From: Gammaproteobacteria bacterium
GTDB lineage: Bacteria; Pseudomonadota; Gammaproteobacteria; GCA-001735895
DNA: 52,273 nucleotides
Reading direction: 5' to 3'
Assembly: GCA_029862125.1 (NCBI GenBank)
Contig: JAOTXY010000019.1
Coordinates: 1-52,273, forward strand
Position 1 is the stretch's first letter, and each line of letters opens with the position of its first letter. Under the pieces are notes generated by a model. That model was not told the DNA's origin. It did not search any database and saw nothing but the letters and a program-made list of their open reading frames with translations. A program made the translations under genes and the position numbers. This document shows, piece by piece, positions 43,367-52,273 of the stretch.

Positions 43367-45541
43367 ATGCAAATTGAACTCAACTCCCAGCCCCGGCCCC
43401 TGAATCATTACCCGCTGTACTGGGCGGAATGCTTTGGTACGGCCCCGTTTTTGCCGATGTCGCGAACGGAAATGGAGCAACTCGGTTGGGATAGTTGCGA
43501 CATCATTGTCGTAACCGGCGATGCTTACGTCGATCATCCGAGTTTCGGCATGGCGATCATCGGGCGCCTGCTCGAAGCACAGGGGTATCGCGTCGGCATT
43601 ATCGCGCAGCCTGACTGGCATTCTGCCGAACCGTTTAAAGCGCTTGGCAAGCCCAACCTGTTTTTTGGCGTGACCGCGGGCAACATGGATTCGATGATTA
43701 ATCGCTATACCGCGGATCGAAAAATCCGTAGCGACGATGCTTACTCGCCGGACGATATCGGTGGCAAGCGTCCCGATCGCTGCTCGATTGTTTACGCACA
43801 ACGCTGCCGCGAAGCCTTCACCGACACGCCCATTGTAATCGGCGGCATCGAAGCCTCGCTGCGCCGGATTGCGCACTACGATTACTGGCAGGACAAGGTA
43901 AGACGCTCTATCCTGGCCGACGCCAGGGCCGATATTCTGCTCTATGGCAATGCCGAGCGTGCCATCGTCGAGATTGCGCATCGCCTGGCCAACGGCGAAA
44001 CAGTTGATCAAATCACCGATGTGCGCGGGACTGCATTTTTCGTCAAGGACTTGCCAGCCGACTGGACCGTGATCGATTCGACCAACGTCGATAAACCCGG
44101 GCGGGTGGAAAATCCGCAAAATCCTTACGCAATCATCGATCAATCGGTTTGCGATGCAAGCCCGGACAATGACCAGGCGCCTGCCGCCGAGGTCAAACTC
44201 GAGGGTAAGCTTGCACGCGTGCAGCAGAAACTCGAACAACGCTTTAAAACTGTGGTACGCCTGCCCTCTTTTAACGATGTCAGTCGCGACCCGGTACTTT
44301 ATGCACACGCGAGTCGCGTACTCCATCTCGAAACCAATCCCGGCAATGCACGTGCACTGGTGCAAAACCAGGGTGGGCAGAAGATCTGGTTCAATCCACC
44401 ACCGATTCCACTTAGCACCGAAGAAATGGATTATGTATTCGGTTTCGATTACGCGCGCCTGCCACACCCGGTTTACGGCGACGCGCGCATACCCGCTTAC
44501 GAAATGATCCGCTTCTCGGTCAATATCATGCGTGGCTGTTTCGGCGGCTGTACCTTTTGCTCGATTACCGAACACGAGGGTCGCATCATCCAGAACCGCT
44601 CGCAGGAGTCGATCCTGCGTGAAATCGAAGTCATGCGAGACAAAGTCCCGGGGTTTACCGGGGTGGTATCCGATCTCGGCGGGCCGACCGCCAACATGTA
44701 CCGGATCGCCTGCAAGTCAAAGGCGATCGAAACAGCCTGCCGTCGCCCCTCCTGCGTCTACCCGGGAATCTGTGAAAACCTCAATACCGATCATTCGGCC
44801 CTGATCGAACTTTACCGTGGCGCGCGCGCCATCGATGGCGTGAAAAAGGTTTTGATCAGTTCCGGGCTGCGCTATGACCTCGCCGTGGAGTCGCCGAAAT
44901 ACGTCGAAGAGCTGGTCACCCATCACGTCGGCGGTTATTTGAAAATTGCACCAGAGCATACCGAGCAGGGTCCACTGTCAAAGATGATGAAACCGGGAAT
45001 GGGTAGCTACGATCGCTTCAAAAGGCTGTTTGAAAAATACTCCAGAAAGGCGGGCAAGGAACAGTATCTTATCCCCTACTTCATCGCCGCCCACCCCGGC
45101 ACCACCGATGAAGACATGTTGAACCTTGCTCTCTGGCTCAAGCAAAACGGCTTTCGCGCGGACCAGGTACAAAATTTTTACCCCTCCCCGATGGCAACCG
45201 CAACCGCGATGTACCACAGCGGTAAGAATCCGCTAAAACGAATCCGCCGCGATAGCGAGGAAGTCAACACTGCCAAGGGAGAAAAACAACGACGCCTGCA
45301 CAAGGCTTTTCTGCGCTACCATGACCCGGCCAACTGGCCCATGCTACGCTCGGCGTTAAAGGATATGGGCAGGGAGGAAATGATCGGCAACGGCAAGCAT
45401 CAACTGGTCCCGACCTACCAGCCTCGCGATACCGGCAGTTACCACAGCCCGCGACGTAAAAACAGTTACCAGGCCCGATCCGGAAGAGTTAAAAAGGGAA
45501 GCCTGTTAACACAACATACCGGTTTGCCACCGCGCAAGTAG
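43367..45541 (+). CDS. YgiQ family radical SAM protein
   Basis: The 724-residue product carries a radical SAM cluster motif C391-x3-C395-x2-C398 in [14 protein letters not shown]. The YgiQ N-terminal domain ([31 protein letters not shown]) and the C-terminal block with [20 protein letters not shown] and [17 protein letters not shown] are also present. The catalytic reaction of the family is not established. The gene starts about 60 bases after the TSUP gene, enough for its own promoter. Its stop is four bases from that of the convergent DUF3833 gene. Confidence 0.95.
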
Positions 45542-45545
45542 AGGC

Positions 45546-46079
45546 TTATTCCTTTTCGATCACGAGGGTAATCTGGCCAACCTTAAAACCCCACTTGGTC
45601 ATGACTGATTCGTTTAACAACACTCGCTCCGACACCAGGTACATGCGGTCGTCGATACGCAAGTCAATCGTGCTGTCGTCATAGGGGATACGCAATACGT
45701 AATCCAGGAACAGACTGTTACCTGCCGCTATCATTTTGCCTTCCCCGATAACATCACCAGCAGTCGCAACATAACTGCCGTCTGATTGTGGTTTCAACTT
45801 CCAGACGCGGGATTGTTGTTCGCCGTCATCAAATACAAAGCTTTCGTCAAGGGTGCCGATGCCATCGACCCAGTAGGCTTTAATTTTTGCGCTGAAGTAG
45901 CGAATAACCTGCCCACCGTGATCCTTGACAATGCCATGGGCGCTGAGCTGGCCATCAAAAAATTTCTCCGGCACCAGTAGCGGTTTGTTATCGGCGTATT
46001 CATCGATCGTTATCGATGAACAGGCGTTGACGACCGTCAGGGCGAAAGCGACCAGCGTGGCTTTGAAAATCAGTTTCAT
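45546..46079 (-). CDS. DUF3833 family lipoprotein
   Basis: The 177-residue product begins MKLIFKATLVAFALTVVNACSS, a lipoprotein signal with the cysteine at about residue 20. The remainder is a beta-rich domain (FFDGQLSAHGIVKDHGGQVIR, FVFDDGEQQSRVWKLKP, IRIDDRMYLVSERVLLNES-like) typical of DUF3833. It is the last gene of the leftward stress/lipid operon, overlapping the previous stop by four bases (ATGA). The family is found in RpoE/ChrR-linked operons. A lipocalin-like lipid-binding role is inference. Confidence 0.87.
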   Translation of the reverse strand: MKLIFKATLVAFALTVVNACSSITIDEYADNKPLLVPEKFFDGQLSAHGIVKDHGGQVIRYFSAKIKAYWVDGIGTLDESFVFDDGEQQSRVWKLKPQSDGSYVATAGDVIGEGKMIAAGNSLFLDYVLRIPYDDSTIDLRIDDRMYLVSERVLLNESVMTKWGFKVGQITLVIEKE

Positions 46080-46909
46080 AGCGCCAATTGCCGGCTATCG
46101 AAGGCCGACACCTTCCGCTCAACCGCTTTTCCAGTTAATTTCATATCGTTGACACTGCAGGCCTTGGCGGGGACATCCTGGTAGTTGTAACGGATATCGA
46201 CCACGAGCCCTTCACCTTTGCCATCGCCGATATTTGAAAGCCCACGGTAACGGGTAAGACGTTTAAGTTTGGCGTCATATCCAAGTTCAATCGGCGCCAC
46301 CAGCATCCGCAGGAACCAGTTATTCATTTCCAGCCTGAAGCATTGATCAGATTCGGTGTCATAGGTACAGCTGGTCGGCTTGATGCGCAGCTTAACCAGG
46401 CTTTCGCGGGCAGCAAACGGAAACTGGAAACTCTTGTTCTCGCCGGCTAACAGGCTATCCCAGTTACCCGTTACAAATGCATCGAAACCGGCATCTATCA
46501 CGACCGGTAAATTTGCGCTGGGCCGGGTCGAGATAACCTTCCCGGGTCCGGAACTGTTTTCATCCTTTACCGTCATGGTGACTTCATCCTGTTTCAGTTC
46601 AACCTCGATCGATTCCTGCGAATAGAAATTATGCTGCACAAAAGATGGTGTCGTTGGTCCCGTGTTGTAGCTCAATATTTTATGTGCAATCAGCTGACCC
46701 TCGACGTTGCGATATATCACCTCGCGTGCGAGCGCATCACCGCTGAGACAATGAGTTTCGCTATACAGGGGTTCATCGCTTTTCAGGTCATAGGCCTCGC
46801 CAATGGTCTGGGCGACGATGTCGTTGGCATAGGCGGCCGGCATCATCACGCCTAATAACAGCGCGATAACAACCATAGGGCAGCTTTTGTTTCGGGTTCC
46901 GGTATTCAT
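46076..46909 (-). CDS. periplasmic protein of unknown function in the DUF2878/DUF3833 operon
   Basis: The 277-residue product from the ATG at 46909 starts with a signal peptide (MVVIALLLGVMMPAAYA near residues 12-28) and so is exported. The mature part is beta-rich (SETHCLSGDALAREVIYRN, FDAFVTGNWDSLLAGENKSF, LEMNNWFLRMLVAPIELGYD), reminiscent of a periplasmic lipid-binding barrel, but I cannot name a family. It overlaps both neighbours by ATGA junctions. An upstream extension of the frame would run far into the DUF2878 gene and is rejected. Confidence 0.78.
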   Translation of the reverse strand: MNTGTRNKSCPMVVIALLLGVMMPAAYANDIVAQTIGEAYDLKSDEPLYSETHCLSGDALAREVIYRNVEGQLIAHKILSYNTGPTTPSFVQHNFYSQESIEVELKQDEVTMTVKDENSSGPGKVISTRPSANLPVVIDAGFDAFVTGNWDSLLAGENKSFQFPFAARESLVKLRIKPTSCTYDTESDQCFRLEMNNWFLRMLVAPIELGYDAKLKRLTRYRGLSNIGDGKGEGLVVDIRYNYQDVPAKACSVNDMKLTGKAVERKVSAFDSRQLAL

Positions 46910-47409
46910 GATTTCAGTCTTCCCGCGTAGTAGATTCCAAATGGAAATAACAGCGCCCAACCGATGGCCATGATCAACATTGATGTCATCAGTGGCAATC
47001 CAAGTTCGGCGTCTGTCAAATTGCTTCCCAGCCAGTAGCTGGCCGGTCCAAGCACCGCCGCAAATATGACTGCCAGCAGGAGATGTCGATTCATCCAGAA
47101 CAGGCCGTGCATGAAAGTGGTGGCAAACAATACCCACAGGCATACCAGCCAAAGCGGGATTCCGAGCACCAGGGTATCACCGTATTGAATGACCCCGGTT
47201 TGCGCCATCAGCATATCCCACAGGCAGCCGACGACTACCACGATTCCGATTAACTTCCACTCGACAAAATTGCTGAGAACCAGCCAGTTATGGATAAACA
47301 ACGCCGCAATTGTAAAAATCACGGCATAGATATCGCCACCCATGACACAAACGAACCAGCCAATCTGGAATAGTGCCAGGTTGATCAGTATCTTCTTCAC
47401 GCCCAACAT
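46906..47409 (-). CDS. DUF2878 family membrane protein
   Basis: The 167-residue product has five or so hydrophobic helices (ILINLALFQIGWFVCVMGG, VEWKLIGIVVVVGCLWDML, LGIPLWLVCLWVLFATTFMH, LLLAVIFAAVLGPASYWLG, MTSMLIMAIGWALLFPFGIY). This pattern, including the ASYWLG segment, is that of DUF2878 proteins, which recur next to CFA-like methyltransferases in ChrR-linked operons. No enzymatic residues can be named. It starts 10 bases after the methyltransferase gene. Confidence 0.85.
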   Translation of the reverse strand: MLGVKKILINLALFQIGWFVCVMGGDIYAVIFTIAALFIHNWLVLSNFVEWKLIGIVVVVGCLWDMLMAQTGVIQYGDTLVLGIPLWLVCLWVLFATTFMHGLFWMNRHLLLAVIFAAVLGPASYWLGSNLTDAELGLPLMTSMLIMAIGWALLFPFGIYYAGRLKS

Positions 47410-47419
47410 TTCCGTTCGA

Positions 47420-48679
47420 TCAAGACTGGCCGGTTCTGCGCCAATCAGGTTTTGCGAACAGAATTTGCGAGGTGCCTATAATACGCTCCTCGAACCCGCC
47501 CTGGCAGTAGCACAGGTAGTAATTCCACATGCGGATGAAATAGTCATCGAATCCCAGTGCCTTGACTTCATCCAGCTTCGCCAAAAAACGCTCACGCCAT
47601 ACTTCGAGTGTCCTGGCGTAGTCTTCTCCGATCTCCTGCATCCCGACCATCAGCAGGTCGGTGTTCGACCTGACCGACGAAATAATCGCTTCATGGCTCG
47701 GCAATGAGCCACCCGGGAAAATGTAGCGCTGGATAAAATCAACCGACTTTCGCGCGTACTGGTAGCGTTGATCCGGTATCGTAATCGCCTGCAGTAGCAT
47801 CAGGCCGTCATCCTTCAGCAACGCCGCACAGCCGCTGAAATACTGCTTGTAGAACTCGTGACCCACCGCTTCGATCATTTCCACCGAGACCAGCTTATCG
47901 TAACGCCCGCTCAGGTTTCGATAATCCTCGAATAGAACCGTGATCTTCCCGTCGAGGCCTTCTTCCTGCACTCGCCGGGTTGCAGTATCGTACTGTTCTC
48001 GTGAAATCGTTGTGGTCGTTACCCGGCAGCCATAATGCCGGGCCGCATAAATCGCCAGACCACCCCATCCGGTTCCAATTTCAAGCAGGTGATCACTGGG
48101 CTTGAGCTCGAGTTTACGGCAGATAACCTCGAGCTTGTGCAGCGCTGCTTCATCGAGATCGGCGTCCACACTTGGAAAGATTGCCGCCGAGTACATCATT
48201 TCCGGATCGAGAAACAATTCGAAAAAGTCGTTGCTCAAATCATAATGCCGCGAAATATTGTCACGCGCCTGCTTTTCGGTGTTGCGGTTGAGCAGGTGAA
48301 GAACCTTGTCCCCGGCACGTTGAATCACTGATTTTGAATCATCCATTTCGTTCAGAAAATCGATATTGACCGACATCAGACGCACAACGTCGACGAGGTT
48401 CGGTGTGGTCCACTTACCCAGCATATAGGCCTCTGCGCCGCCGATGGAGCCACCAAAGGCGATATCCCTGTAGGTACCGGGATCCTGGATCACGATCTTT
48501 GCCTTGACATCGATCTCGTCAGCCGGATTTCCAAAACCGTGTAACTCGTCGCCATCTTCAATCAACAGGTATCCACGCGGCATCTGTTGCAGGCGCTTGA
48601 GGAGCTGATGCTTGGCAAAACCATTTATAAGGCCTGGTTTTTCGGGCACTTTAACTACGGAGGGATTTACAGTATTCAT
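47420..48679 (-). CDS. cyclopropane-fatty-acid-synthase-like SAM methyltransferase
   Basis: The 419-residue product has the CFA N-terminal lipid-binding domain (about 30-130) and a methyltransferase domain with LLEIGTGWGGLAIYAARHYG and TTTISREQ. The catalytic-domain segments EMIEAVGHEFYKQYF and QRYIFPGGSLPSHE are also present. Relatives in RpoE/ChrR operons act on phospholipid acyl chains, either cyclopropanating or methylating them; in Rhodobacter such enzymes are linked to furan fatty acids. Which reaction occurs here cannot be told. The ATG at 48679 overlaps the DUF1365 stop as ATGA, which favours it over an upstream ATG. Confidence 0.9.
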   Translation of the reverse strand: MNTVNPSVVKVPEKPGLINGFAKHQLLKRLQQMPRGYLLIEDGDELHGFGNPADEIDVKAKIVIQDPGTYRDIAFGGSIGGAEAYMLGKWTTPNLVDVVRLMSVNIDFLNEMDDSKSVIQRAGDKVLHLLNRNTEKQARDNISRHYDLSNDFFELFLDPEMMYSAAIFPSVDADLDEAALHKLEVICRKLELKPSDHLLEIGTGWGGLAIYAARHYGCRVTTTTISREQYDTATRRVQEEGLDGKITVLFEDYRNLSGRYDKLVSVEMIEAVGHEFYKQYFSGCAALLKDDGLMLLQAITIPDQRYQYARKSVDFIQRYIFPGGSLPSHEAIISSVRSNTDLLMVGMQEIGEDYARTLEVWRERFLAKLDEVKALGFDDYFIRMWNYYLCYCQGGFEERIIGTSQILFAKPDWRRTGQS

Positions 48680-49467
48680 GTCTTTGTCTTCAGTCTGGTT
48701 ATTGTTGATTGATTTTGGTGGTCCCAATTCTGGGGTTTGGGGTGATCATAAAACGGATTGCGCTTGATCCAGAGTTTTAAAGCCTGCCAGTAAATGGTCA
48801 ATGCGACCTTGGCCGTCATCCACGGATGTCGTAGCAAAATTCGCGCGAGAGACGCGCCATTGATATCCTGTCTTTTTAACGCCATGGTCGCATCCATATC
48901 GATTTCCCCATCGCGCTCGGTTTCGAGATTGAGGCTTAAGACCTGCTGCGGATTGTTGCTACACCAGTGATACATCATGTTCATCGGATTGAATGGTGAA
49001 ACGTGCATTAATTTTTTAAACTGGCTGCGCTGAAAGCGCTGTTTCGGATCGCATTTGATCACGTAACTCTGGCGTTCGTTCCACGGTGTGTTGGTGACTT
49101 CGACAACGATAAACTGCAGCACTTGCTGTGCATCGAAGCAGTAGTAACAGCTTATAGGATTGATGTTGAAACCGAAGTAACGCAGGTTCGCCAGCATTCG
49201 AATCGGGCCTTCATGCCAATGCCCGGTTTCGTCGTGGATTCTTTTCTGCACCGCCTGTTTCAAAGGTACTGCGGGGTCACCCAGAAAATCGCTGCGCTCG
49301 AAGCGTGCCGGACGCCACGGTTTGCGCGACCAGAAAGGCGACTGGGCGAGGACTTTGTCTAATTCGTCAAGGTCCAGGTACATCATGAAAACCTGGTAGC
49401 TGAAACGGTGCGCATGCGGCGTAAAGCGACGGTGACGCAAGTAACCCTGGTAGATCGCGCTATGCAT
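48676..49467 (-). CDS. DUF1365 family protein
   Basis: The 263-residue product starts MHSAIYQGYLRHRRFTPHAH, the usual DUF1365 N-terminus, and has FMMYLDLDELDKVLAQSPFWS, NLRYFGFNINPISCYYCFD, EVTNTPWNERQSYV and KKLMHVSPFNPMNMMYHW. The role is unknown, but the family occurs with the FAD amine oxidase and CFA-like enzyme of lipid-modifying stress operons. The ATG at 49467 gives the family start and overlaps the oxidase gene by 8 bases. A longer upstream frame has no supporting family sequence. Confidence 0.92.
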   Translation of the reverse strand: MHSAIYQGYLRHRRFTPHAHRFSYQVFMMYLDLDELDKVLAQSPFWSRKPWRPARFERSDFLGDPAVPLKQAVQKRIHDETGHWHEGPIRMLANLRYFGFNINPISCYYCFDAQQVLQFIVVEVTNTPWNERQSYVIKCDPKQRFQRSQFKKLMHVSPFNPMNMMYHWCSNNPQQVLSLNLETERDGEIDMDATMALKRQDINGASLARILLRHPWMTAKVALTIYWQALKLWIKRNPFYDHPKPQNWDHQNQSTITRLKTKT

Positions 49468-50758
49468 AAGCGACCTCGTCGAATGAGCCCATATCCACTG
49501 GCATCGAGGGCACAAGCTGGTTAATTGCATCGGCAACGCGGCGTCCACTGACAACACCATCTTCATGAAATCCATTACCCAGGTAGGCGCCTGCAAACCA
49601 GGTACGATTAAGCCCGTTAAAGTCCTGGATCTTTCGCGCCGCCGCTACCGATTCCAGCGAAAACACCGGGTGGCTATAGTCGAAGCTATCGATAATTTTT
49701 GCGGGCGATATCGACTCGGTCGCATTGAGCGTAACGCAGAAAGTGGTGTCCGATTTCAAGCCCTGCAATATGTTCATATTGTAATTCAACACCGCTCGCT
49801 GCTGTTGTCGCTCACGTAACCAGTAGTTCCAGCTCGACCATGCCGCACGATGACGCGGTAACAGACTTTCATCGGTATGCAATACCACCTGGTTGGACTG
49901 GTAAGGAATCGCTTCGAGCGCGTCACGCTCGTCCCTGGATGCATCTCCCAGCAATCCGAGCGCCTGGTCGCTGTGACAGGCGAAAACGACCTGGTCGTAT
50001 TTAACTGTGAGCCCGTTTGCCATGACCAGTTCTACTGCTGCCTGACGTCGGCGCACTGTAGAGATTTTGGCGTCCAGCCTGATAGCACCGCTAAACTCCC
50101 TGATCAAAGGCTCGAGGTAACGCCTTGATCCACCCTTGATGACATGCCATTGCGGGCGATCGTTAACGCTCAACAGACCATGATTCTTAAAAAACCGGAT
50201 GAAAAAGAGCAGTGGAAAATCGACCATGCGCTCGGTGGAGGCAGACCAGATAGCGCATCCCATTGGCAGCAGGTACTGGTATATGAATGCGTCGCCATAG
50301 CGATTAGCGACAAGATACTCGCCGAGCGTGGTTGTCGCGGATATGCGTCCGCTTTCGAGATCAGCAATCGCCTCGCGGTTGAAGCGCAGAATATCGCGCA
50401 ACATTCGATGGAATGAAGGTCGCAGCAGGTTACGACGCTGCGCAAACAAGGTATTCAGATTATTACCGCCATACTCGAGACCGCTCTCATCGCAACGCAC
50501 ACTGAAACTCATTTCGGTAGGCTGGGTTTCAACCCCGAGTTCCTGCATCAACTCGATAAAATTCGGATAGGTCCAGTCATTGTAAACAATGAACCCGGTG
50601 TCGATCGCGTAATGCCGGCCTTTGTGCTCGACGTCGATGGTTGCGGTATGCCCACCAATTCGGGGCGCCGCTTCGTAGACGGTAATATTATGCTTGTGAC
50701 GCAGGTAGTAGGCTGCCGTTAAGCCGGAAATCCCGGCACCGATTATCGCAATATTCAT
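49460..50758 (-). CDS. FAD/NAD(P)-dependent amine-oxidase-like protein
   Basis: The 432-residue product begins MNIAIIGAGISGLTAAYYL, a dinucleotide-binding fold, and has YDQVVFACHSDQALGLLGD and a C-terminal FAGAYLGNGFHEDGV FAD motif. It belongs to the group of flavin amine-oxidase/desaturase-like proteins that accompany DUF1365 and CFA-like genes. The substrate is probably a lipid acyl chain, by association only. The ATG at 50758 overlaps the SDR stop (ATGA); upstream codons would lengthen the N-terminus ahead of the nucleotide fold. Confidence 0.9.
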   Translation of the reverse strand: MNIAIIGAGISGLTAAYYLRHKHNITVYEAAPRIGGHTATIDVEHKGRHYAIDTGFIVYNDWTYPNFIELMQELGVETQPTEMSFSVRCDESGLEYGGNNLNTLFAQRRNLLRPSFHRMLRDILRFNREAIADLESGRISATTTLGEYLVANRYGDAFIYQYLLPMGCAIWSASTERMVDFPLLFFIRFFKNHGLLSVNDRPQWHVIKGGSRRYLEPLIREFSGAIRLDAKISTVRRRQAAVELVMANGLTVKYDQVVFACHSDQALGLLGDASRDERDALEAIPYQSNQVVLHTDESLLPRHRAAWSSWNYWLRERQQQRAVLNYNMNILQGLKSDTTFCVTLNATESISPAKIIDSFDYSHPVFSLESVAAARKIQDFNGLNRTWFAGAYLGNGFHEDGVVSGRRVADAINQLVPSMPVDMGSFDEVAYA

Positions 50759-51546
50759 TTGCTCACACCTTCCCCGGAATCCTGTTCCGGTGTAGCAGTG
50801 CCGGGAGTTACCATTTTTTGCCATACCCCCGGTAAAATTTTTGACAGCGACAACAGGACTGAGAGTCGCAGCGGAAAGCTATATTGCCTGGGCCTTGCTG
50901 CAATTTTTTTAACGATGCGCTCTGCCGCCTCATCCACCTGCATCAGGAACGGCATCGGGAAATCATTCTTGCGCGTCAGCGGGGTATCGACAAAGCCGGG
51001 ATTAACCACTGTCACATCGATGTCATCGGCCGCCAGGTCCATGCGCAAACTGTCGAAGAAATAACGCATCGCAGCCTTCGAAGCTCCGTAGGCCTCGGCC
51101 CTTGGGAGCGGCGCGGCAGTGACCTGCGAAACGATTGCTACCACGTGGGGGCGATGGCTGTTGCTTTTACGTAATAACGGCAATGCAAGCTTGACGCAGT
51201 TAACCGTGCCAAAAAAGTTTACCTCCATGACACGTCGCACAGCCGACCAGTCGGGATCAGGAAAATCGAGGTACTCACAGTTTCCGGCGTTTAGTATCAC
51301 CTGGTCGAGTGCCGGTGAGATTTCCTCGATGCGCGAGCGCAACGATTGCATTGCTTCTTCATCGGTAATATCGCAAGGCAAGGCGACAATGTTTGCGTCG
51401 AGCGCAGCGAGTTCCTCGAGCGCTTCCTGGTTGCGCGCAGAAGCGATTACGCGATTGCCCTGGCCGGCCAACTGCAACGCCAGACTTCTGCCGAGGCCAC
51501 TACTGGCACCGGTAATCCAGATCACCTTTGGAGATTTGCCAACCAT
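50755..51546 (-). CDS. short-chain dehydrogenase/reductase
   Basis: The 263-residue product has the SDR cofactor motif TGASSGLGRSLAL (residues 13-25), the NAG structural motif in VILNAGN, and the active-site YxxxK as YGASK within AEAYGASKAAMRYF. The specific substrate is unknown. It is the second gene of the leftward operon, starting 4 bases after the NTF2-like gene. An SDR at this point of the ChrR/RpoE-linked operon is the usual arrangement. Confidence 0.92.
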   Translation of the reverse strand: MVGKSPKVIWITGASSGLGRSLALQLAGQGNRVIASARNQEALEELAALDANIVALPCDITDEEAMQSLRSRIEEISPALDQVILNAGNCEYLDFPDPDWSAVRRVMEVNFFGTVNCVKLALPLLRKSNSHRPHVVAIVSQVTAAPLPRAEAYGASKAAMRYFFDSLRMDLAADDIDVTVVNPGFVDTPLTRKNDFPMPFLMQVDEAAERIVKKIAARPRQYSFPLRLSVLLSLSKILPGVWQKMVTPGTATPEQDSGEGVSK

Positions 51547-51550
51547 GACG

Positions 51551-51979
51551 CTAGCTCACCAGGCGCAATTTGAGCCAGCGCGTGACGTTACCAAGCAAGG
51601 GCAGTTGCTCGTAGAGCATGGCACCCATGTCATAGAAATCCTCGTGGAAATCGATTTTGTCACTGATCTGAAGATGGCTGACGCCGCGCACACTGATGAG
51701 GCGGTTGCCCAGTTTCGGATGTTTGAAATGCATCATCCACTTGATGTAGGCAACGCTGTCATTGGTGAGCTCGTCGAGGTATTCGAAGCGGCAATCGCTG
51801 AGATCGGCGCACATCGAAGTGAAGTAGTCCTCGAGTTCAACCAGGCCCCTGATTTCATGAACCGGATCCTTAAATACAATGCGGTCGGAATAGAGTTCGC
51901 GCAATTGGCTCAGGTCGGACTCGTGCAGGGTCCGGAAATAGTCTTTGAAACGCTCAACTATAGGAGTGTCAGTATTCAT
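51551..51979 (-). CDS. nuclear transport factor 2-like (SnoaL-type) protein
   Basis: The 142-residue product has the small alpha+beta barrel layout of the NTF2-like superfamily (ERFKDYFRTLHESDLSQLRELYS at the N-terminus, VFKDPVHEIRGLVELEDYF, and a beta-rich end). No catalytic residues can be named. It is the promoter-proximal gene of the leftward operon. The ATG at 51979 is chosen because the predicted -10 element at 52022-52027 excludes the upstream ATG at 52036. An ATG at 52000 is also possible. Confidence 0.85.
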   Translation of the reverse strand: MNTDTPIVERFKDYFRTLHESDLSQLRELYSDRIVFKDPVHEIRGLVELEDYFTSMCADLSDCRFEYLDELTNDSVAYIKWMMHFKHPKLGNRLISVRGVSHLQISDKIDFHEDFYDMGAMLYEQLPLLGNVTRWLKLRLVS

Positions 51980-52021: not shown

Positions 52022-52051
52022 CTTATACGCCTGCAATAAAGAAATGGATCA
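52022..52051 (-). promoter_or_regulatory. ECF-type promoter for the leftward stress operon
   Basis: Read leftward, TGATCC (52051-52046), an 18-base spacer and TATAAG (52027-52022) form a site like the ECF11/RpoE-ChrR consensus TGATCC-N18-TAAGA known from Rhodobacter. Transcription would start near 52014, about 35 bases before the NTF2-like ATG. Confidence 0.75.
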
Positions 52052-52056
52052 ATCGG

Positions 52057-52086
52057 TGATCCAGTATCTTCGCTGTTACGTAATAA
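52057..52086 (+). promoter_or_regulatory. ECF-type promoter for the sigma-factor gene
   Basis: TGATCC (52057-52062), an 18-base spacer and TAATAA (52081-52086) form a site matching the ECF11 type. It points toward the sigma-factor start and faces away from its mirror-image partner. The two -35 hexamers, GGATCA-N5-TGATCC, make a near-symmetric centre. Autoregulation of the sigma factor is the inference. Confidence 0.75.
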
Positions 52087-52115: not shown

Positions 52116-52273
52116 ATGGCCCTCATGGCAAACACGACAGCAAAAAGTGACCAGCTTGCGCACTTGAGCGCATGCATCAATCGCGTTGCTGAAAACCGAG
52201 ACAAATCGGCATTCGCCGAGCTGTTTGATCACTACACGCCTCTCATCCGCGCTTACAGTCTCGCGCGTGAACC
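52116..52273 (+). CDS. ECF RNA polymerase sigma factor (RpoE/ChrR-type), 3' end cut by window edge
   Basis: Only the first 52 codons are in the window. The frame is MALMANTTAKSDQLAHLSAC, then AFAELFDHYTPLIRAYSLAR. The phrase FAELFDHYTPLIRAYSLA is typical of the sigma-2 region start of ECF sigma factors. A start at the second ATG (52125) is equally possible. Its divergent neighbours are the classic RpoE/ChrR lipid-modification genes, so an ECF11-type sigma with a downstream ChrR zinc anti-sigma gene is expected beyond the edge; this part cannot be checked here. Confidence 0.85.
   Translation, partial: MALMANTTAKSDQLAHLSACINRVAENRDKSAFAELFDHYTPLIRAYSLARE

Follow-up and report, generated by a model that had tools for sequence, protein, structure and literature searches.

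Mirror-image ECF11-type promoters, predicted from sequence, between an rpoE-chrR operon and a divergent lipid operon in a gammaproteobacterial genus

Where a sigma factor gene and a set of lipid-modifying genes diverge from a common intergenic region, does the DNA between them hold one regulatory site or two, and which genes would be served? The question is raised by a contig of 52,273 nucleotides from a gammaproteobacterium (termed the window, meaning the whole stretch of DNA that was analysed), in which eight tightly packed minus-strand genes lie to the left of a mirror-image pair of sites and a sigma factor gene lies to the right. What the sequence establishes is the presence of the sites and their conservation, the layout of the genes, and the membership of the sigma factor and its partner ChrR. 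It is highly probable, in our judgement, that the sites form a mirrored pair of ECF11 promoters serving both the rpoE operon and the lipid operon, with self-activation and feedback; the membrane-lipid operon is very probably controlled by the adjoining light-stress sigma factor. The features are as follows.

45546..46079, minus strand: DUF3833 protein, encoded last in the presumed operon
46076..46909, minus strand: protein matching no Pfam or NCBIfam family, its N-terminus resembling a signal peptide by eye
46906..47409, minus strand: DUF2878 protein
47420..48679, minus strand: CFA-synthase-like methyltransferase (CMAS family), UfaM-type or CFA
48676..49467, minus strand: DUF1365 protein, with a presumed UfaO-type (RSP_1090-like) role
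49460..50758, minus strand: FAD amine-oxidase family protein, with a presumed UfaD-type (RSP_1091-like) role
50755..51546, minus strand: short-chain dehydrogenase/reductase (SDR)
51551..51979, minus strand: SnoaL/NTF2-like protein, encoded first in the divergent operon
52026..52051, minus strand: putative operon-side ECF11-type promoter; TGATCC −35 element at 52051-52046, N16, CGTA −10 core at 52029-52026, then TAAG
52046..52062, no strand: mirror centre GGATCA-N5-TGATCC, with the 5-bp gap at 52052-52056
52057..52082, plus strand: putative sigma-side ECF11-type promoter; TGATCC at 52057-52062, N16, CGTA at 52079-52082, then ATAAG
52125..52273, plus strand: 5′ part of the ECF11-like sigma gene rpoE, with an in-frame ATG at either 52116 or 52125; truncated at the window end

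The whole core is 57 bp long, positions 52026-52082 reading TACG-N16-GGATCA-ATCGG-TGATCC-N16-CGTA. The preliminary description had placed a minus-strand TGATCC-N18-TATAAG ending at 52022 and a plus-strand TGATCC-N18-TAATAA ending at 52086 around the same centre, and its letters and coordinates, including those of the centre, are right. Its reading as two sites stands, but its assignment of the −10 elements does not: the published core is CGTA after 16 bp, and the N18 elements arise when these sites are read 2 bp beyond it. Both promoters match the published motif, one facing the lipid operon and the other the sigma gene as had been proposed, such that TGATCC-N16-CGTA precedes both rpoE-chrR and the core target operon.

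The window ends at the contig end, inside the sigma gene, which continues on a second contig of the same genome (C128). This contig overlaps the last 127 bp of the window (letter-for-letter comparison extended to 59 bp) and carries, in one direction, the genes for the sigma factor, ChrR, a 2-thiouracil-desulfurase/DUF1722 (YbgA-like) protein and a photolyase; the join depends on the 127-bp overlap, and in relatives this order is seen within one contig. The sigma factor scores above the Pfam cut-offs for Sigma70_r2 and r4_2 (Group IV regions 2 and 4), and its best match among solved chains is Rhodobacter sphaeroides RpoE (2q1z_A, 6e-29; runner-up 1e-13). ChrR, encoded directly 3′ of it (locus L013), scores 188 bits against TIGR02451 (cut-off 124.5), matches the ChrR structures 2z2s/2q1z (2z2s_B, 7e-32) and has a C-terminal cupin-like domain (PF12973, 57.3 bits, cut-off 27). 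The HLEHCQSC seen by eye in its sequence fits HX3CX2C, which we take to be the zinc motif of the ChrR anti-sigma domain. By these sequence comparisons, the truncated sigma factor and ChrR are members of the ECF11, or RpoE-ChrR, system. The families of the ECF11 core regulon, listed in PMC5507510 and described also in section 16 of PMC6852236 after Dufour et al. 2008, are all present (cfa-like, FAD oxidoreductase, DUF1365, SDR and photolyase). The earlier transfer of the RpoE/ChrR (ECF11) reading to the present species is thus supported by the sigma factor, ChrR and the published motif; the reading is not new, the R. sphaeroides case having been published already.

On the other side of the core, the eight-gene operon likely includes furan-fatty-acid (Ufa) genes, judging from protein families. 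The methylated furan fatty acid pathway acts on vaccenate through UfaD, UfaO (DUF1365) and UfaM, and the family domains of such enzymes are present here; the CFA-like protein, which could be UfaM or CFA synthase, matches 12 NCBIfam families, below the cut-off in every one. The next long open reading frame (ORF) downstream of the DUF3833 gene, at 43367-45541, is convergent. The protein at 46076-46909 also has tblastn matches in the mirrored-core loci L053, L094, L096, L119 and L124.

In the mechanism that we propose, singlet oxygen or an organic peroxide would free the sigma factor from ChrR, and the RNA polymerase-sigma holoenzyme would bind either TGATCC-N16-CGTA site. The rightward transcript would be rpoE-chrR-ybgA-photolyase, yielding more sigma factor, ChrR and repair enzymes, while the leftward transcript would be the eight-gene operon, yielding enzymes of lipid modification, with possible feedback on ChrR; self-activation and positive feedback would both issue from a single 57-bp core. 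Two holoenzymes would probably never be on the core together, and the two operons would share polymerase by competition. The footprint of polymerase is about −55 to +20; with −35 elements 5 bp apart, footprints should overlap and competition between the promoters is therefore likely. Promoter activity, the signal, operon structure, feedback and mutual exclusion are what we infer from the sites and their setting.

How readily could such a pair arise by chance? The exact motif TGATCC-N16-CGTA occurs twice in the window, both times in the mirrored core; with up to one mismatch it occurs four times against 2.9 expected, which is not above chance. The 3.7-Mb genome has 21 exact matches at spacer 16 (the mirrored two included), against off-spacer counts of 19 for spacers 13-15 summed and 15 for spacers 17-19 summed, a background of 5.7 per spacer length (Poisson P 6e-7 for the spacer-16 excess). 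At the background rate, about 7e-5 mirrored pairs with a gap of 0-30 bp would be expected per genome. Off-spacer counts replaced a backwards-pattern control (94 matches versus 244 for the true pattern, with up to one mismatch), which was dropped because reversed TGATCC contains CTAG, a sequence scarce in many genomes. An exact match by itself is weak evidence, since 14 of the 19 other exact sites fall within mechanical ORFs of at least 70 amino acids on either strand, and intergenic promoters alone leave the genome-wide spacer-16 excess unexplained. The ORF-internal sites are those of L015, L017-L023, L026, L028, L029 and L031-L033, all in genome G000. The looser TGATCC-N17-19-TA, with 6 matches in the window versus 3.69 expected, is no scarcer than chance predicts, and rarity therefore depends on CGTA and the pairing. 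The spacing first described was accordingly rejected as a functional unit, being at chance level in the window. TGATCC-N16-20-TAWTAAG, also tried, matches the sigma-side site and one other in the genome, the latter inside an ORF of L001.

The family set comprised 41 genomes, the window's own included, and in 19 of them the sigma factor is matched at E ≤ 1e-40; 19 sigma loci from outside the window's own were compared, one genome having two. The exact mirrored core is found at 17 of these 19 related loci, with a gap of 3 (four loci), 4 (three), 5 (five), 6 (four) or 7 bp (one); once the window's own core is added, the genus has 18 exact cores with gaps of 3-7 bp, six of them with a gap of 5. 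Each site is exact at 18 of the 19: the operon-side site is absent from L166, and the sigma-side site of L178 reads TGGTCC. With this single-mismatch case counted, the pair is present at all 18 related loci where a divergent operon gene adjoins the sigma gene. L166 has the sigma-side site alone, with no operon match within 1.5 kb upstream of the sigma gene and DUF1365 on another contig; L174 keeps the core, and its divergent neighbour is a CFA-like match at 29% identity. A check suggested earlier, for close relatives that keep the operon without TGATCC, was run through this comparison and left the reading unrefuted. TGATCC and CGTA are invariant in the 18 exact cores since the search pattern demands both, and the informative figure is the mean pairwise identity of the 16-bp spacers: this is only 37% on the sigma side and 42% on the operon side, and the boxes are therefore not retained through close kinship alone.

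Within the genus, DUF1365 goes with the sigma factor. Of the 30 genomes compared besides the window's own, 18 are sigma-positive and 16 of these have a DUF1365 match at the E 1e-20 threshold, as against none of the 12 that are sigma-negative; without correction for relatedness, Fisher P is 1e-6. In the two sigma-positive genomes that gave no DUF1365 match (G016 and G018), FAD, SDR and NTF2 matches adjoin the core on short contigs. Outside the genus, six of 10 genomes of the family have DUF1365 (36-47% identity), with no sigma match at E 1e-40. One assembly, G026 (62% complete), holds two copies of the sigma locus (L164 and L180), each mirrored at gap 5; either the locus is duplicated or the bin is mixed.

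A pattern scan of GTDB contigs for the mirrored core with a gap of 0-30 bp gave at least 118 loci. Among the matches listed, a sigma match starts within 250 bp in 100 of 118 cores, a match that alone does not establish group ECF11; 94 of the 118 listed have the sigma gene on one side and, on the other, a divergent operon gene as the nearest of 12 query proteins. The remaining 18 of the 118 listed, without a sigma match so placed, may be contig ends, other loci or chance. These counts among the matches listed come from a scan that selected for the mirrored motif, and thus show association, not frequency. The contigs listed bear alpha-, gamma- and some betaproteobacterial titles, and the mirrored arrangement recurs in many proteobacteria. 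An even class sample of 369 genomes gave, by a motif-only count, the pair at gap 0-30 in five and at gap 31-61 in two. For plasmids, 22 loci from 62 matching records were searched over 800 bp each, one mismatch at most being allowed in either site: the pair is present at 10 of 10 loci where a divergent FAD gene is annotated (two of these with one mismatch; gaps 5, 25-28, 49, 71 and 72), at one of seven annotated loci without such a gene and, over the same span and tolerance, at none of the five unannotated loci. One contig (L159) on which sigma and ChrR matches adjoin a mirrored core is titled a Klebsiella pneumoniae MAG and is probably a mislabelled bin.

Could the core be something other than a promoter pair? 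GGATCA-N5-TGATCC is a perfect inverted repeat in the middle of a divergent intergenic region, and a dimeric transcription factor might use it as an operator to control both operons, whose promoters would then be housekeeping ones. Its gap, however, takes every value from 3 to 7 bp in relatives, ranges over 2-30 in the listed contig set and reaches 72 on plasmids, which is so variable that a rigid dimer would not fit; each half is moreover tied to CGTA at exactly 16 bp, a motif given for ECF11 sigma factors in published passages. We give the operator next to no credence. That one site alone is a working promoter, the other being a relic or a chance GATC-rich repeat, draws some support from the mismatched sigma-side −35 element of L178, but both halves stay exact at 17 of 19 related loci while the spacers drift, and the operon-side site is missing at L166, where no operon gene lies by the sigma gene (1.5 kb); a single working promoter is therefore very unlikely, and two ECF11 promoters remain the preferred reading.

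The competition step alone faces a further rival, in which the promoters fire independently, with no mutual exclusion, and the short gap reflects a compact intergenic region. Gaps differ widely across taxa, up to 72 bp, and proximity is therefore not essential to the ECF11 promoter-pair system; the plasmid gaps of 49-72 bp likewise mean that tight abutment is not needed everywhere. Against this, the gap within the genus stays at 3-7 bp in 18 cores, and footprints of the size given above would overlap at such distances. Independent firing is a serious contender, a little short of an even chance. Competition has also a more elaborate form, in which selection maintains the mirrored core as a bipolar switch with its −35 elements in helical register, where one holoenzyme at a time picks the direction and competition sets the ratio of sensor and sigma factor to lipid operon; this we consider unlikely. 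Helical phasing was spotted post hoc. In the GTDB contig loci listed, gaps run from 2 to 30 bp (30 being the upper bound of the pattern) and cluster near 4-6, 11-16 and 22-28 bp; over the 100 sigma-adjacent loci among the matches listed, period 10.5 gives R 0.31 and P 8.5e-5. After the listed loci are thinned by sigma identity, P is 6.6e-5 (92 clusters), 2.8e-4 (81), 4.5e-3 (56) and 0.055 (39), and periods 9 to 12 score nearly equally on the listed loci. With titles of the listed loci sorted by hand, the phase is 3.86 in alphaproteobacteria (69 loci), 4.01 in gamma- and betaproteobacteria (22) and 3.86 in unclear cases (9); on these listed loci, gamma/beta alone gives P 0.16, and alpha scores higher at periods 9, 11 and 12 than at 10.5. 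Plasmid gaps include six of 25-28 (related rhizobial genera), one of 5 and one of 2 (with one mismatch), while the Azospirillum gaps of 49, 71 and 72 are off the phasing. A literature search on this geometry, most subscription journals being outside it, found no discussion of abutting mirrored promoters.

Elsewhere in the genome, an exact TGATCC-N16-CGTA lies on the minus strand at L014 1501-1526 (G000:C6:9369-9394), 147 bp before the ATG of rpoH, the only gene in the genome above the RpoH cut-off (TIGR02392, 380 bits). Across the genus, 16 sigma-positive genomes (own included) could be assessed for this site: 12 carry an exact copy whose start lies 172-177 bp ahead of the start codon, three have one mismatch and G020 has no site. 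Among sigma-negative genomes it is exact in one of 10 (G017), with one mismatch in one more (G011). Compared with sigma presence, and without correction for relatedness, exact sites give Fisher P 0.004, and sites with at most one mismatch give 0.0002. G019 (contig end) was left out of the count, and at E 1e-60 rpoH had no match in G001 and G014 (sigma-positive) or in G006 and G025 (sigma-negative). The motif upstream of rpoH is a probable ECF11 site, and suggests an ECF11-to-RpoH cascade in the genus. An RpoE-to-RpoHII link is known from R. sphaeroides, and the rpoH site, if ECF11-driven, would carry it over to the present genus. Three proposals would be new here: the abutting geometry, the tentative helical phasing and the probable ECF11 site upstream of the only rpoH. 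A further exact ECF11-like site, at L027 1501-1526 (G000:C88:2972-2997), lies between Hpf-like and PtsN-like genes (named by eye), 57 bp before the PtsN-like gene.

The locus has clear counterparts. In R. sphaeroides, according to the portions of PMC3818230 cited here, the rpoE-chrR operon and the RSP_1091-1087 operon each have an RpoE-dependent promoter, and RSP_1091-type genes are often adjacent to rpoE-chrR in alphaproteobacteria; both operons being already reported as RpoE-dependent, the present locus is a known type of system. RSP1091 is UfaD, RSP1090 (DUF1365) is UfaO and RSP2144 is UfaM in the corresponding part of PMC7380195, and RSP_1091/1090 promote ChrR breakdown in R. sphaeroides (PMC3818230; PMC7380195, in part). 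As far as these passages go, rpoE-chrR adjoining an operon for a flavin enzyme and DUF1365 is common to both organisms, whereas the operon described here adds the SnoaL-like, CFA-like, DUF2878, unnamed and DUF3833 proteins and the sigma operon runs on into ybgA and photolyase. The RpoE2-ChrR system of Shewanella oneidensis MR-1 shares the promoter motif (TGATCC with CGTATT/CGTAAT, starts being mapped for rpoE2 and pgpD) and the targets cfa, phrB and ybgA; it differs in that the cfa/phrB operon (SO_3386-3374) lies away from rpoE2-chrR (SO_1986-1985), and the rpoE2 neighbour SO_1987 (a Lon domain protein) is also a listed target (PMC4336711, sections cited). PSPTO_1043/1042 of Pseudomonas syringae DC3000 has the same consensus, TGATCC-N16-CGTA, and a PSPTO_1043 regulon with phrB, cfa, amine oxidase and RSP_1090 homologues, but there the homologues of the core genes are spread over three separate loci (PMC5507510, sections cited). 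In the present gammaproteobacterial genus, the ECF11 core genes form two predicted divergent operons flanking one 57-bp core, in which both polymerase competition between promoters and a helical constraint on their spacing now become testable.
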